Shown here: positions 3,751-10,400 of the stretch, one piece after another
How the letters are laid out: every line of letters begins with the position of its first letter
Position numbering within the stretch: position 1 is the stretch's first letter
Origin: Natronobacterium gregoryi SP2
GTDB taxonomy: Archaea; Halobacteriota; Halobacteria; Halobacteriales; Natrialbaceae
NCBI RefSeq assembly: GCF_000230715.2
Contig: NC_019792.1
Location: 186,001 to 250,000, forward strand
Reading direction: 5' to 3'
DNA length: 64,000 nucleotides
Program-made: the position numbers and the translations under genes
Notes under the pieces: model-generated
The model's input: only the letters and a program-made list of their open reading frames with translations
Told to the model about the DNA's origin: nothing
Databases searched by the model: none

Positions 3751-4284
3751 ATGTCGTCAATCGAATTGACACCGAGTCAAAAGAAAATCCTTCGTGCACT
3801 AACTAACCTCCACAAGGACTCGGAGGATGCCATCAAGGGCGAGGACATCGCCGACCAGGTCGACCGAAACCCCGGAACGATCCGCAACCAGATGCAGAGT
3901 CTCAAAGCTCTCCAACTCGTCGAAGGTGTCCCCGGCCCCAAAGGCGGCTACAAACCAACCGCCGCAGCGTACGAAGCCCTCGAGATCCAGCAGATGGACG
4001 ACCCCGCCACCATCCCCCTCGAGCACGAGGGCGACCTCATCGACGGTGTCATCGTCGAAGAGATCGATCTCTCGAGTGTTCACCATCCCGAACTCTGTCG
4101 AGCGGAGGTCCACATGCAAGGGACCATCGACGATGTCTCCGAGGACGATGCCGTCACCGTCGGACCGACGCCGCTGTCGAAACTCGTCATCGACGGTCGG
4201 GTCGACGGAACGGACGACACGAACAACATCCTCATCCTGCGAATCGAGAGCATGACCGCACCGGCCGAAGAACCCGAACACTGA
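3751..4284 (+). CDS. haloarchaeal winged-helix regulator (Rrf2/TrmB-like)
   Basis: This 177-residue protein has an N-terminal winged helix at residues 5-70 (KKILRALTNL, IADQVDRNPGTIRNQMQSLK, wing GVPGPKGGYKPT). A C-terminal part of about 100 residues follows (DLSSVHHPELCRAEVHMQG, VTVGPTPLSKLVIDG) that I take as a small-molecule or dimerisation domain conserved in haloarchaeal relatives. A single Cys lies in the HHPELCRAE segment. The start is fixed by a TATA box at 3720-3727. It is monocistronic and convergent with gyrA. Its target is unknown, and the family assignment at the C terminus is from memory of related sequences. Confidence 0.75.
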   Translation: MSSIELTPSQKKILRALTNLHKDSEDAIKGEDIADQVDRNPGTIRNQMQSLKALQLVEGVPGPKGGYKPTAAAYEALEIQQMDDPATIPLEHEGDLIDGVIVEEIDLSSVHHPELCRAEVHMQGTIDDVSEDDAVTVGPTPLSKLVIDGRVDGTDDTNNILILRIESMTAPAEEPEH

Positions 4285-4379
4285 TCAGTCTCGATTCGAC
4301 TCGGGACGGTCGACTACTCGCGTAGATGTCACGTCTCTCTTCTCTCGAAAACTGAACGCCGTCTCGTCGCCACGAGTCG

Positions 4380-6875
4380 TCAGTTCGAGTCGTCGGCCTC
4401 GGCCTCGTCGGTTGCAATCGTGGCGGCCGGAATCTCGTCGACGCTCGCGACGGCGTCGTCGCCTTCGACTTGCATCACGATCACGCCCATCGTGTTCCGT
4501 CCGACAGTCGAGACCTCGTCGACGCGAGTGCGAACGATCTGGCCGTCCTCGCTCATCAACACGAGGTGATCGTCCTCGGAGACGGCCTTGATCGCGGTAA
4601 CTGGACCGTTCCGGCCTTCGGTCTTGATGTCGATCAGCCCCTTCCCGTACCGGGACTGAGTGCTGTACTCTTCGATCGGCGTGCGCTTGCCGTAGCCGTT
4701 CCGGGTGACGGTCAGTAGGGCCTGGCCGTCGCCGTCGTCGCCGTTCGCGGCGACGAGTCCGGCGACTGCATCGTCCGCTTGCAGTTTGATGCCGTTGACT
4801 CCGCGGGCCGTCCGGCCCATCGCGCGGACCTCGTCTTCGGCGAACCGGATCGTCATCCCGCCTTCGGTCGCGATGACCAGATCCTGGCTCCCGTCGGTGA
4901 CCTCGACATCGACGAGTTCGTCGCCCTCCTCGAGGTCGGCGGCGATGATCCCCGTCGAACGAATATTGTCGAACTCCTCGCTGGCGGTGCGCTTGACGTA
5001 GCCGTTCCGGGTGGCCATCGTCACGAACTCGTCGCCCTCGAGAGCGTCGGTGTCGACGATGGCGGTAATGTCCTCACCGTCGTCCAGATCGAGAATGTTG
5101 ACCGCGGACTTCCCGCGTGCGGTCCGACCCATCTCGGGGATTTCGTACGTTTTGAGCTGGTAGACGTTCCCCTGATTCGTGAAACAGAGGAGGTAGTCGT
5201 GGGTGTTGGCCCGGAAGACCGTGGCGACGCGGTCCTCGTCTTTGACGTCTGCGCCGATGATGCCTTTCCCGCCTCGACCCTGGGGGTCGAACGTCTCGAT
5301 CGGCATCCGCTTGACGTAGTCGTCCTCGGTCATGACGACGACGACCTCCTCTTCGGGGATGAGGTCCTCGTGGGTGACCGTCCCCTCGTCCTCGACGATC
5401 GAGGTGCGGCGTTCGTCGTCGTACTCGTCTTTGACTTTCCGGAGTTCGTCTTTGATGACCTCGAGCAGTTCCTGCTCGCTGTCGAGGATCGTGGTGAGTC
5501 GTTCGATCTCTGCTTGGACGTCTTCGTACTCGTCTTCGATCTCGGCGGCCTCCATCGAGGTGAGGCTTCCGAGTTGCATACGGACGATGTGGTCGGCCTG
5601 ATCCTGCGAGAAGCCGTAGGCCTCCTGCAGCGCTGCTTTCGCGTCGGCTCGAGTCTCGCTATCCCGAATCACCTCGACCACGTCCTCGGCGTTCTCGACG
5701 GCCTTCAAGCGCCCCTCGAGGATGTGAGCACGGTCTTCGGCCTCGGCGAGGTCGTACTCGCTGCGCCGACGAACCACCTCGCGGCGGTGGGCGACGTACT
5801 CCTCTAAGGTCTCTTTCAGCGAGAGTACCTGTGGCTGGCCGTCGACCAGCGCGAGGTTGATGACGCCGAACGTTCGCTCGAGGTGGTTCTCGAGCAGTTT
5901 GTTCTTGACTACCTCGGTGTTGGCTCCGCGGTTGAGCTCGACGACGATGCGGACGCCGTCGCGGTCGGACTCGTCACGCAGGTCCGATATGCCCTCGATT
6001 TTGCCCTCGGTGACGTCTTCGGCGATGCGTTCGACCATTCGGGCCTTGTTCGCCTGGAACGGGAGTTCGGTGATGACGATCCGCTCGCGGCCGTTCTTCC
6101 ACTCCTCGACTTCGAACTCCGCGCGGACGCGGATTCGTCCGCGCCCGGTCTTGTACGCCGAGTAAATGGCGTCACGACCGACGATGTTCGCGCCGGTCGG
6201 AAAGTCGGGACCTTTGACGTGTTCCATCAGGTCCTCGACGGTCGCCTCGGGATCGTCGATCAGTTCGATCGTCGCGTCGATCACCTCGCCCAGGTTGTGC
6301 GGCGGGATGTTCGTACTCATCCCGACCGCGATCCCCGAGGACCCATTTACCAGCAGGTTCGGGAAGGCGGCGGGGAGCACGTCCGGTTCCTGCAGTCGGT
6401 CATCGTAGTTCGAGGAGAAGTCGACCGTATCCTTGTCGATGTCCTCGAGTAATTCCTCGGAGATAGGCGACATCCGGGCTTCGGTGTATCGCTGTGCTGC
6501 GGCCGGGTCACCGTCCATCGAACCGAAGTTCCCCTGGCCGTCGACCAGCGGATAGCGCATCGAGAAGTCCTGGGCCATCCGCACGAGCGTGTCGTAGATC
6601 GCGCTGTCACCGTGGGGGTGGTAGTCACCCATCGTCTCGCCGACGATCGACGAGGACTTGCGGTGACTGGAGCCACTCGTAACCCCCATCTCGTGCATCG
6701 CGTACAGGATGCGTCGGTGGACGGGCTTTAAGCCGTCCTCGACGCGGGGGAGCGCACGACCCGCGATGACGGACATCGCGTAGTCGATGTAGCTCTGTTC
6801 CATCTCGTCCTCGATTCGGACGTTCTCTACCGCTCGAGCCTCTACGTCTGTCGGATCGGGTACCTCTGAACTCAT
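4380..6875 (-). CDS. gyrA: DNA gyrase subunit A
   Basis: This is the breakage-reunion subunit of DNA gyrase, 831 residues, acting as an A2B2 complex to introduce negative supercoils. The winged-helix/tower region carries the catalytic tyrosine at about residue 130 ([11 protein letters not shown]). The quinolone-determining region reads [11 protein letters not shown], with Ser91 and Asp95 at the classic positions, so it looks drug-sensitive. The C-terminal beta-pinwheel starts with the GyrA box QGRGGKG and shows repeated G-(K/R)-x-(A/G) blades ([30 protein letters not shown]). Bacterial-type gyrase is normal in haloarchaea. It lies 301 bases downstream of gyrB in the same direction, with an array of hairpins between them. 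Confidence 0.97.
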
Positions 6876-6934
6876 ATCTTCATTGGGTTTCGTAGTCTGT
6901 GTGAATTAGCTGGCGAGCACTGCATCCGTGAGAG

Positions 6935-7160
6935 CGTCCGCTCTGCGGACGATCGAGCGGGCCGACGACCGACCCGGAGCGCGGCTTGCCGCGCGGCGGG
7001 GAGGGAGGAGTGCTTTTCATCAAAGCTAAGCGGGAGCTTCGCTCCCGCGAGGTCGTCGGGCGGCGTTCCCGCCCGACTGCTCGAGGGACTTCCATCCCTC
7101 GCTGTCCGAGAGAGCTTTGCTCTCTCGAGATTTTGCCGAGGGTGCGCCTTCGGCGCACCC
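6935..7160. repeat. array of seven perfect hairpins between gyrB and gyrA
   Basis: Seven consecutive inverted repeats fill this stretch: 6935-6951 (CGTCCGC stem), 6979-6994 (GCGCGGC), 7030-7048 (GCGGGAGC), 7055-7077 (GTCGGGCGG), 7082-7101 (CGAGGGA), 7107-7127 (CGAGAGAGC) and 7140-7160 (GGGTGCGCC). Stems are 7-9 bases and perfect; loops are 2-6 bases, often TTC or TTT. The stem sequences differ from one another, so this is not a simple duplication. No gene is supported in the gap of 6876-7176. Read as RNA from gyrB toward gyrA, the loops are GAA, AAA or similar. Confidence 0.85.
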
Positions 7161-7176
7161 GCAGCGCAAAAGTTTG

Positions 7177-9111
7177 TTAGATGTCGATCCATTCGGCTTC
7201 CGGCGCGTTCTCTTTGATGAACTGCTTTCGCGGTTCGACGGCGTCGCCCATCAGCACCGAGAACATCTTGTCCGCGGCAGCCGCATCCTCGATCGTGATC
7301 TGTTTGAGAATGCGGTTGTCCGGGTTCATCGTCGTGTCCCAGAGCTGCTGGGGGTTCATTTCACCGAGGCCCTTGAACCGCTGGACCTGGGTCGGATTGC
7401 CGTCGCATTTCTCCGCGACGATCTCGTCACGTTCGGCTTCGGTCATCGCGTCGTAGGTTTCCCCACGGTAGCGGACGCGGTACAGGGGCGGCTGGGTCGC
7501 ATAGACGTAGCCACCCTCCAGCAGCGGCCGCATGTGTCGGTAGAAAAACGTCAACAGCAAGGTGCGAATGTGTGCACCGTCGACGTCAGCGTCTGTCGCC
7601 ATGATGATCTTCTTGTACCGGACGTCCTCGACATCGAATTCGTCGCCGATTCCCGCGCCGATCGCGGTGATCATGTTCCGGATCTCGTCGTTCTCGAGGA
7701 TGCGATCCAGCCGGTGTTTCTCGACGTTCAAGATCTTCCCTTTAATCGGCAGGATCGCCTGAAAGTCGGGATTTCGAGCCTGTTTTGCACTGCCACCGGC
7801 GGAGTCACCCTCCGCGATGAACAGTTCGGCTTCCTCGGGATCTTTGGTCTGGCAGTCTGCGAGTTTGCCCGGCAACGAGGTCGACTCCAGCGCCGACTTT
7901 CGCCGTGTCAGTTCTTCGGCTTTCTGGGCGGCTTTCCGGGCCTTTGCGGCCTCGACTGCTTTGGTGACGATCGCTTCGGCCGTGTCCGGCTGTTCCTCGA
8001 AGTAGGTACCAAGCCCGTCGTGCATCGCGCTCTCGACGATGCCCCGCACCTCCGAGTTGCCGAGTTTCGTCTTCGTCTGACCCTCGAACTGCGGATCGGG
8101 GTGTTTAATCGAGACGACCGCTGTCAGTCCCTCGCGGATGTCCTCGCCTTTGAGGTTCTCGTCGAGATCCGAGAGCAGGTCGTTCTCGTTGGCGTAGTCG
8201 TTTACCGTCCGGGTCAGTGCAGTTTTGAACCCGGTGAGGTGTGTCCCGCCCTCGCGGGTGTTGATGTTGTTTGCGAAGGCGTGGATCGAGCCCTGTAGCT
8301 CCTTGGTGGCCTGCATCGCCACCTCGACGTGAATGTTCTGAGTTTCGTCCTCGAAGTAGATGACGGTCTCGTGCATCGCCGAGCGCGTCTCGTTGAGATA
8401 CTCGACGAACTCGCGGATACCACCCTCGTACTCGTAGGTCTCCGTGGCGACTCCAGCCGCGTCGTCGGCGTCTTCGCGCTCGTCACGCAGCGTGATCCGG
8501 ACGCCGGAGTTGAGGAAGGCAAGTTCCCGAAGCCGGTTCGCCAGCGTCGAGAACGAGAACTCGTCGGACTCGAAGATACTCCCGTCGGGCCAGAAACGGA
8601 TCTCGGTGCCGGTCTCCTCGTCCGATTCCATGTCACGAACCCGCTCCATGTCGCCGACGGGTTCGCCACCCTCGAACGCGTGGCGATAGACGCCGCCGTC
8701 GCGTTTGACCTCGGCCTCGAGTCGCTCGGAGAGTGCGTTGACGACGCTCACCCCGACCCCGTGGAGGCCGCCGGAGACCTGGTAGGACTTGTTGTCGAAC
8801 TTGCCGCCGGCGTGTAGAACAGTCAAGATGACCTCGAGCGCGGGGCGATCGTACTCCTCGTGTGTGTCGACCGGAATACCTCGGCCGTCGTCTGTGACGC
8901 TCACCGACCGATCCTCGTGGATGGTGACGGTGATGTCGTCGCAGTGACCAGCCAACGCCTCGTCGATCGAGTTGTCCACCACTTCGTAGACGAGGTGATG
9001 GAGCCCTCGAGAGTCGGTAGAGCCGATGTACATCGCCGGACGCTTTCGCACGGCCTCCAGGCCCTCGAGGACCTGGATCTGTCCAGCGCCGTACTCGCTT
9101 TCCTGGGACAT
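7177..9111 (-). CDS. gyrB: DNA gyrase subunit B
   Basis: This is the ATPase/TOPRIM subunit of gyrase, 644 residues. The GHKL ATPase motifs are EVVDNSIDEA, DDGRGIP and HGVGVSVVNALS near the N terminus. The TOPRIM motifs EGDSAGGSAKQ and DADVDGAHIRTLLLTFF lie in the last third, followed by the C-terminal KGLGEMNPQQLWDTT segment. Length matches archaeal and bacterial short GyrB. It is the first gene of gyrB-gyrA. A TATA-like TTTATTAG on the minus strand (9143-9150) lies about 32 bases before the ATG. Confidence 0.97.
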   Translation of the reverse strand: MSQESEYGAGQIQVLEGLEAVRKRPAMYIGSTDSRGLHHLVYEVVDNSIDEALAGHCDDITVTIHEDRSVSVTDDGRGIPVDTHEEYDRPALEVILTVLHAGGKFDNKSYQVSGGLHGVGVSVVNALSERLEAEVKRDGGVYRHAFEGGEPVGDMERVRDMESDEETGTEIRFWPDGSIFESDEFSFSTLANRLRELAFLNSGVRITLRDEREDADDAAGVATETYEYEGGIREFVEYLNETRSAMHETVIYFEDETQNIHVEVAMQATKELQGSIHAFANNINTREGGTHLTGFKTALTRTVNDYANENDLLSDLDENLKGEDIREGLTAVVSIKHPDPQFEGQTKTKLGNSEVRGIVESAMHDGLGTYFEEQPDTAEAIVTKAVEAAKARKAAQKAEELTRRKSALESTSLPGKLADCQTKDPEEAELFIAEGDSAGGSAKQARNPDFQAILPIKGKILNVEKHRLDRILENDEIRNMITAIGAGIGDEFDVEDVRYKKIIMATDADVDGAHIRTLLLTFFYRHMRPLLEGGYVYATQPPLYRVRYRGETYDAMTEAERDEIVAEKCDGNPTQVQRFKGLGEMNPQQLWDTTMNPDNRILKQITIEDAAAADKMFSVLMGDAVEPRKQFIKENAPEAEWIDI

Positions 9112-9142
9112 GAGAAACCTGCTTTCGGGTAGTGGACGACGA

Positions 9143-9150
9143 CTAATAAA
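9143..9150 (-). promoter_or_regulatory. TATA box of gyrB
   Basis: CTAATAAA on the plus strand reads TTTATTAG toward gyrB and lies 32-39 bases before its ATG, compatible with a very short leader. The 200 bases up to the next gene otherwise show only an alternating CG tract (about 9160-9174). Confidence 0.5.
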
Positions 9151-9311
9151 GGTTCACGTACGCGCGCGAGCGCGAGACACGCTGTGGTGCAACTATCAAT
9201 TTGCCCATGAGCATGCAAGTAGCTCACACGCTCGTCAGTCTGAACCCGGACACTCGACTCACGCTCAGACGCTGCCAATCACTGTCCGGGCACGGCAGCG
9301 AGCAGTTTCGG

Positions 9312-10400
9312 CTATTCTGCCTCGAGCAACAGCGACTCACACAGCGCGTCTGGCCCTTCCTCTTCGAGCAGTCGGCGCTGCCGTTCAGCCCCACTCTCGC
9401 GTTCGTAGATCGTTTTGATCCCGTCGATCCCCAGTCGCTCGCACTCACGGTCGACGAGTTCGCCGAGGTCGACAGTCCCCTCCATCTCGCGGTCGAGGAG
9501 ACGCGCGTCGTGACCGTGGCGGATCGCTCGCCACTTCTGTTCGTCGAGTAGTTCGCGCCGGTGTTCCCGTCCGTACCCCGGTGCGCCGTCCTCGTACTCC
9601 TCGGCTAGGGCCTCGACGAGCGCGTGAGAGTACTCGACGAAGGCCATCACGACGTCGGGATCTGCCTGGCCGTCCGGCGTCCGAATCTCGACGGTCCCGT
9701 GGGCAGTGTGGGGCCGGACGTCGTACCAGAGTTCGCCACGGTCGTTGATCGAGTCGGTCTCGAGCATCCGCCGTTCGAACCGATCGAACGCTTCGAAATC
9801 CTCGAAGTAGGTCGGCATCCCGGTGTTTGGCAGTCCCTCGAAAATCTTCGCGCGGGCGGACTGGAGTCCGGTGTCGAACCCGTTCCAGAACGGTGAATTT
9901 GCGGAGAGCGCGAGCATGATCGAGACGTACCACCGTAGCTCGTTTGCGATCCAGACGGCCTTGTCGGCGTCGTCGACGCCGACGTGGACGTGCAGGCCAG
10001 CAGTCGTGTTCCGGTGTTGTGGGTACTGGATGCGGTCGAGTTGTGAGCGATAGCGGGACTTCTCAGCGTGCTCGAGTTCGCGCCACCGCGCGAACGGGTG
10101 GAGGCCGGCGGCAGCGACATCGTAGCCGTGTTCGTGGGCGTGAGCGAGCAGTGCTCGGCGAATATCCCGCAGCGCCTCGCGGGCGTCGTCGGGATCTTCT
10201 ATCAGGGGCGTCTGGGTTTCGACGACGAACTTGAACAGTTCGTGATCGAGTCGGTTCTCGAGGATCTCTGGCGGGTCGTGTTCGTAGACGAGTTCGTCGG
10301 TACCGCTCGTGGGACGGCCGTGCTCGTCGACGACGAAACACTCCTCTTCGATCCCCAACGTGCCCATACGCGTAAACGAATCCGGCGACCCGCGTTCCAT
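9312..10400 (-). CDS. gshA: glutamate--cysteine ligase (gamma-glutamylcysteine synthetase)
   Basis: This enzyme of 362 residues belongs to the GCS2/carboxylate-amine ligase family and makes gamma-glutamylcysteine, the main low-molecular-weight thiol of haloarchaea. The N-terminal active-site strand is [12 protein letters not shown]. Other family blocks are [22 protein letters not shown] (metal/nucleotide site), [13 protein letters not shown] and [15 protein letters not shown] placed the start at the ATG giving [13 protein letters not shown]; the longer frame adds 21 residues through the promoter side. No glutathione synthetase is nearby, in line with gamma-glutamylcysteine being the end product in these organisms. 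Monocistronic. Confidence 0.88.

Follow-up and report, generated by a model that had tools for sequence, protein, structure and literature searches.

What are the hairpins that crowd the spacer between gyrB and gyrA of Natronobacterium gregoryi SP2, and do they belong to gyrase at all? According to an earlier note, seven consecutive perfect hairpins lie at positions 6935-7160 of the window, that is, of the whole 64-kb stretch of DNA analysed here. The cluster is real: the spacer contains six perfect hairpins, with 7-9 bp in the stem and 3-6 nt in the loop, and a seventh that can form as 7 bp around a 2-nt loop or as 6 bp around a 4-nt loop. The claimed excess over expectation holds as well. 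The window contains 84 hairpins in total (stem of at least 7 bp, loop of 3-8 nt), corresponding to ~0.3 per 226 nt, and the densest 226-nt segments in a scan of the 64 kb all fall at this array, with five hairpins each. Moreover, the predicted fold of the 256-nt array has an energy of -148.7 kcal/mol, compared to -117.4 ± 4.9 kcal/mol in dinucleotide shuffles (z -6.35). A generic terminator scan yielded one site against 0.4 expected.

A structured element family dispersed across Halobacteria

A DNA search with the gyr spacer matched unannotated sequence on Natrinema, Halostagnicola and Haloterrigena megaplasmids, as well as at further places in the host's own chromosome. A conserved 19-mer occurs in 75 stretches among 84,980 prokaryote genomes, ~70 of them in Natrialbaceae. 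Twenty-eight short copies were aligned with MAFFT (alignment A1), and the covariance model R1 was then built. A1 was seeded by an exact motif, whose constancy in this alignment is therefore in part an effect of ascertainment; that motif played no role in the choice of the opposite strand of the GA helix or of the copies taken from other families. Matches to the model are present in 155 of 242 sampled Halobacteria genomes and in 118 of 125 genomes of the host's family, with about one to thirty copies per carrier and at least 28 in the richest genome; these counts are lower bounds, as the number of candidates scored in each genome was capped, and the E-values of the matches are rough. The host genome itself has seven matches with E<1e-6, two of which are the halves of the gyr copy. 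Altogether, the gyr array is a single copy of a structured element dispersed across Halobacteria, directly abutting the gyrB stop codon, in which long-range pairs link the individual hairpins (Table 1).

Without optional hairpin cassettes the element spans ~120-140 nt, and many copies add a fourth hairpin domain (GCCTGCC..CTCCCGGCCA) 14-18 nt past HP3. None of the 4227 Rfam covariance models matched positions 4000-10000 of the window at E<=1, and eight other loci gave only tRNAs at the gathering threshold. Phage records contained no match to the element.

Table 1. Features of the gyr copy and its neighbours (positions in the window), and loci of two groups of copies elsewhere
Feature	Position or locus	Strand	Remarks
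gyrA, downstream co-directional gene	4380-6875	-	TIGR01063, E 0
Entire gyr element	6917-7176	+ (folding strand, antisense to gyrB/gyrA)	R1 matches 6926-7055 and 7079-7176; checked against the other 20 gyr spacers that carry the element
GCACT, putatively paired with AGTGC (7009-7013) to close a three-way junction	6917-6921	+	read by eye
HP3: CCGT-GA-stem-GA-GCGG	6926-6960	+	inner stem variable
GA helix 5' arm: GC-C-GA-C-GA-CC-GA	6961-6975	+	tandem TC/CT (gyr sense) is GA/GA here in 95-97 of 97 copies
HP2, tip of GA helix	6979-6994	+	seventh hairpin
GA helix 3' arm, GGGGAGGGAGGAGTGC	6998-7013	+
T-run TTTTC, immediately past GA helix	7014-7018	+ (antisense)	putative terminator tract
P1 5' arm, partner 7173-7176	7021-7024	+	CAAA/TTTG, CGAA/TTCG, CGAC/GTCG, CAAC/GTTG among copies
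Optional 105-nt cassette of four hairpins	7026-7130	+	hairpins 7030-7048, 7055-7077, 7082-7101, 7107-7127; exactly missing from near-identical allele L132
P2 arm TTTTGC, partner 7166-7171	7131-7136	+	inner pair changes G-C/C-G/A-U
HP1, 9-bp stem	7140-7160	+	arms swapped among relatives, pairing preserved
P2 arm GCAAAA (gyr strand: TTTTGC)	7166-7171	+	begins 5 nt past gyrB stop on the gyr strand
P1 3' arm	7173-7176	+	adjoins gyrB stop codon
Six perfect hairpins	6935-6951, 7030-7048, 7055-7077, 7082-7101, 7107-7127, 7140-7160
gyrB stop codon	7177-7179 (complement)	-	directly adjoins the element
gyrB, upstream gene	7177-9111	-	TIGR01059, E 7e-292
Copies near S6e-like gene	L194 = G000:C1:1883535-1883713; L118, L055, L070, L079, L105, L224		L194 in the host's own genome
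Subtype M loci	L234 = G023:C1:3400930-3404173; L233, L235; L236-L238

Covariation and the folding strand

The element comprises P1, P2 and HP1 on the stop-codon side, a helix bearing HP2, and HP3. Among 97 distinct copies (alignment A2), 96.2% of the pair cells are paired, and two-sided changes number 379, compared to 100.5 ± 14.2 in shuffled and 17-53 in slid controls. A2 was fitted to the covariance model; the independent alignment A1 agrees, with 97.7% standard pairs and 94 two-sided changes versus 26 shuffled and 3-12 slid. These data show that the fold is kept by compensatory changes. The earlier note had taken stems kept with changed sequence, in the same gap of related genomes, as what would support function, and this is the pattern found, also between the close gyr alleles L121 and L130. 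Their right halves are nearly unchanged. In the left 46 nt of L130, most differences are matched changes of both members of a pair, of which P1 and P2 have one each and HP1 has two; a loop base differs as well. Within the 5' arm of the GA helix, an adjacent pair covaries between C-G and U-A (52:41). The GCACT/AGTGC pair has one compensated case, GCGCT/AGCGC in L144, and was left out of the covariation tests.

At three places the gene-sense strand carries internal loops of TC opposite CT in 95-97 of 97 copies, which become tandem G.A pairs on the antisense strand; both these and a conserved G.G mismatch are nearly invariant. As RNA, the antisense strand folds better in 82/82 copies (mean fold z -3.86 vs -2.33 for the sense strand), and with DNA parameters it does so in 78/82. 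Enrichment of tandem-GA hairpins in general sequence is weak. G.U pairs are scarce on both strands. Wobble asymmetry was tried as a test for the folding strand and is not decisive: the full-length copies have 24 G.U and 53 A.C, and a single pair supplies 27 of the A.C cases. Since G.U is rare on either strand, the data do not tell RNA from single-stranded DNA as the folding molecule.

Both strands carry a T-run past gene ends, TTTTGC on the sense and TTTTC on the antisense strand, with lengths of 4-5 kept. The sense run in the P2 arm measures 4-5 in 28/28 copies from other families, in which the A-run complementary to TTTTC is likewise kept at ~4-5. In the L305 copy, the antisense GA hairpin is immediately followed by T5.

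Placement and spread among genes and genomes

Comparison of 70 gyrB-gyrA spacers revealed 21 with the element (158-449 nt, one to nine hairpins) and 49 without it (26-138 nt). The earlier note would have given up its idea upon uniform transcript coverage together with loss of the hairpins in close relatives; of these two, the loss is what the 49 empty spacers display. The allele L132 differs from the window copy by three substitutions and the exact lack of the optional cassette. A second recurrent cassette, GTCGTT-hairpin-TGATGA-hairpin-AACCAC, is found in L141, L164, L094, L103, L089, L072 and L269, where it sits in different hairpins and in both orientations. The gyrA leaders (6876-6916 in the window, and the spacers L122-L170) differ completely between occupied and empty spacers; therefore, whole spacers were exchanged, not the element alone. 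A GAGGTGA-like Shine-Dalgarno motif is absent from occupied spacers, and GAGGTGA is often present in empty ones.

As judged by a home-made codon-usage gene caller, 54 of 84 main-type copies begin 0-4 nt past the stop of a gene in the same orientation, and no copy begins at 5-14 nt; in other families, 11 of 28 copies lie 0-5 nt after a stop. Host genes recur between genera, with eight copies at each of two gene families, seven at gyrB and two to four at several others. Judged from their sequences, the recurrent hosts presumably include EngB, geranylgeranyl reductase, PurF, L10e, a TbsP-like regulator, acyl-CoA dehydrogenase and TFS. Of 30 genomes, 5 have a model match at the stop of the geranylgeranyl reductase gene; they belong to four families (f1, f2, f4 and f6), and a likely sixth copy, in f9, was recognized by eye. 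Similarity is higher among copies that share a host gene than between copies at different genes (0.788 vs 0.759; 1 of 2000 permutations). The recurrence at the same gene ends across families indicates an association that is either old or has been re-established repeatedly.

Convergent gene pairs hold no excess of copies (45:37 vs a background of ~60:55). One group is not post-stop and lies ~44 nt upstream of a divergent S6e-like gene, by its look ribosomal protein S6e. A right-half-only remnant (L198, G000:C1:1720392-1720473) is located downstream of a gene with the terminal sequence GGMGGMM, which we take to be probably a thermosome subunit. A supposed post-tRNA copy, L279, was dropped, the called tRNA being ~160 nt away.

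Subtype M lies in intergenic regions. Genome G023 has four identical copies of it and G077 has three, at unrelated places and with flanks that differ. Its ends carry the short match (C)TAC...GTA(C), and the direct repeat CTGTACTGAACGGCAACTAC(G)(C/T)GTGCGA borders one copy on either side, suggestive of insertion into, or excision from, such a site. Judged from these sequences, some copies appear to have been mobile recently, and subtype M is probably still spreading. Matches to the Y1 transposase family (PF01797) are present in the host genome and in G023; neither G063, with at least 23 copies, nor G061, with at least 17, has one. A search of 36 TnpA/TnpB loci (115 kb) gave no significant element match (best E 0.014), and an IS605/PATE or TnpB guide-RNA origin was accordingly rejected. 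The host genome has TnpB-like (PF07282) matches at twelve places, more than the three relatives searched.

Possible function and relation to known systems

A processing or termination role, also raised by the earlier note, still appears to be the leading idea, whereas a device for gyrase alone is not supported, since the same element follows many unrelated genes. In Haloferax volcanii, the main intergenic terminator motif is a T-stretch followed by C (PMC7237163). We favour a 3'-border element because the sense and antisense T-runs, and the T5 of L305, resemble such terminators, and we tentatively propose, with a probability of roughly 40%, that hairpins and T-runs together stop transcription, mainly antisense and perhaps part of the sense. 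Antisense transcripts entering from downstream would run into GC-rich hairpins ending in TTTTC and be stopped before reaching the gene, and the gene's own transcript may be terminated or thinned at the TTTTGC tract 5-9 nt past the stop codon. In the gyr spacer, the element would act as a partial terminator or insulator. A strong sense terminator there would starve gyrA, because the two genes are co-directional and no TATA-like box was seen by eye between the element and gyrA. The extra hairpin cassettes may be tolerated insertions in the junction.

Several observations speak against the border model. The identical subtype M copies mark a recent spread that a purely regulatory element does not need, and the precise spacing of 0-4 nt is not obviously needed by a terminator. 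In addition, the rarity of G.U on both strands is unusual for RNA, copies show no enrichment at convergent gene pairs, and the S6e-like group is not post-stop.

The main rival, which we consider possible but rather unlikely, is a non-autonomous element whose mobile form is a folded single strand, like REP/BIME with RAYT or like PATEs, its place after stop codons reflecting target choice or survival. It would account for the strand-specific fold, for at least 28 copies in one genome, for identical copies with different flanks and presence/absence among close relatives, and for the near lack of wobble pairs, as expected of DNA folding. However, the known Y1/IS605 route is unsupported, as genomes with at least 17-23 copies lack a PF01797 match and the TnpA/TnpB loci gave nothing significant; moreover, the same genes are occupied in different families and same-gene copies are more alike.

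Two other readings are improbable, to a similar degree. The better fold of the antisense strand and its tandem G.A loops, typical of structured RNA, would suit a transcribed antisense non-coding RNA with a function of its own (guide, protein sponge or antisense regulator), but in 31 aligned copies the sequence on the element's right shows neither an AT-rich nor a TATA-like promoter signal, the window copy has no Rfam match, and G.U is not preferred over A.C. A 3' UTR structure on the sense strand, protecting or processing the upstream gene's mRNA, would explain the fixed sense orientation at 0-4 nt from the stop codon, and the hairpins form on that strand too; its loops, however, are C.U/U.C mismatches, and its fold under RNA parameters is the weaker one in every copy compared.

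It is very unlikely that the element is a neutral by-product, in which recombination spreads the repeats, and palindromes are corrected at replication so that stems stay perfect. Whole stem arms do vary among close relatives with pairing kept and almost no wobble intermediates, yet such correction would erase the nearly invariant G.G and tandem G.A mismatches, and the post-stop position would be left unexplained. A supercoiling sensor specific to gyrase and working through cruciform extrusion, one of the earlier note's suggestions, is scarcely credible despite the long perfect palindromes between gyrB and gyrA, because the element is mostly elsewhere and missing from 49/70 gyr spacers, and because a cruciform requires both strands, whereas the internal mismatches that are conserved have a meaning on only one.

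Literature searches found no description of this element, and a survey of REP sequences in bacteria and archaea contains no haloarchaeon (PMC12306157). We put at about even odds that it is a previously undescribed Halobacteria family, marked by an antisense-strand fold, tandem G.A helices, a position flush to housekeeping stop codons and gain or loss of cassettes, and serving either as an antisense-blocking 3'-border device or as a domesticated single-strand mobile element. Given its wide spread and strong covariation at conserved gene 3' ends, it should affect transcript ends in Halobacteria. It offers a concrete, testable candidate for the means by which haloarchaea keep neighbouring or antisense transcription apart, and the gain and loss of cassettes provides a natural record of how a multi-hairpin structure grows.

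Like the REP/BIME of enterobacteria (RAYT, TnpA_REP), the element is a dispersed intergenic array of palindromes, often 3' of genes, with a single-strand fold and several units per cluster. Unlike them, it reaches several hundred nt, has long-range pairs and tandem G.A loops, lies flush to stop codons, and is present in genomes without a Y1 transposase match (G063, G061). The PATEs and small mobile repeats of Haloquadratum (PMC3119063) are likewise transposase-free, palindrome-rich and haloarchaeal, with nested insertions; the ends of PATEs match IS605-type ends, whereas the present element has no significant match at the transposase loci. The identical copies of subtype M at different places of one genome recall MITEs, from which the element differs in that no clear target duplication or partner transposase is established. 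ERIC/IRU-type structured repeats are intergenic, 100-200 nt long, with long inverted repeats and internal insertions; they resemble the present element in these traits and come from another domain of life. Finally, haloarchaeal T-stretch terminators share the T-run followed by C at gene 3' ends, and some have hairpins upstream of the 3' ends (PMC7237163), but the tracts of the present element lie within a conserved multi-hairpin fold, and the second of them is antisense.
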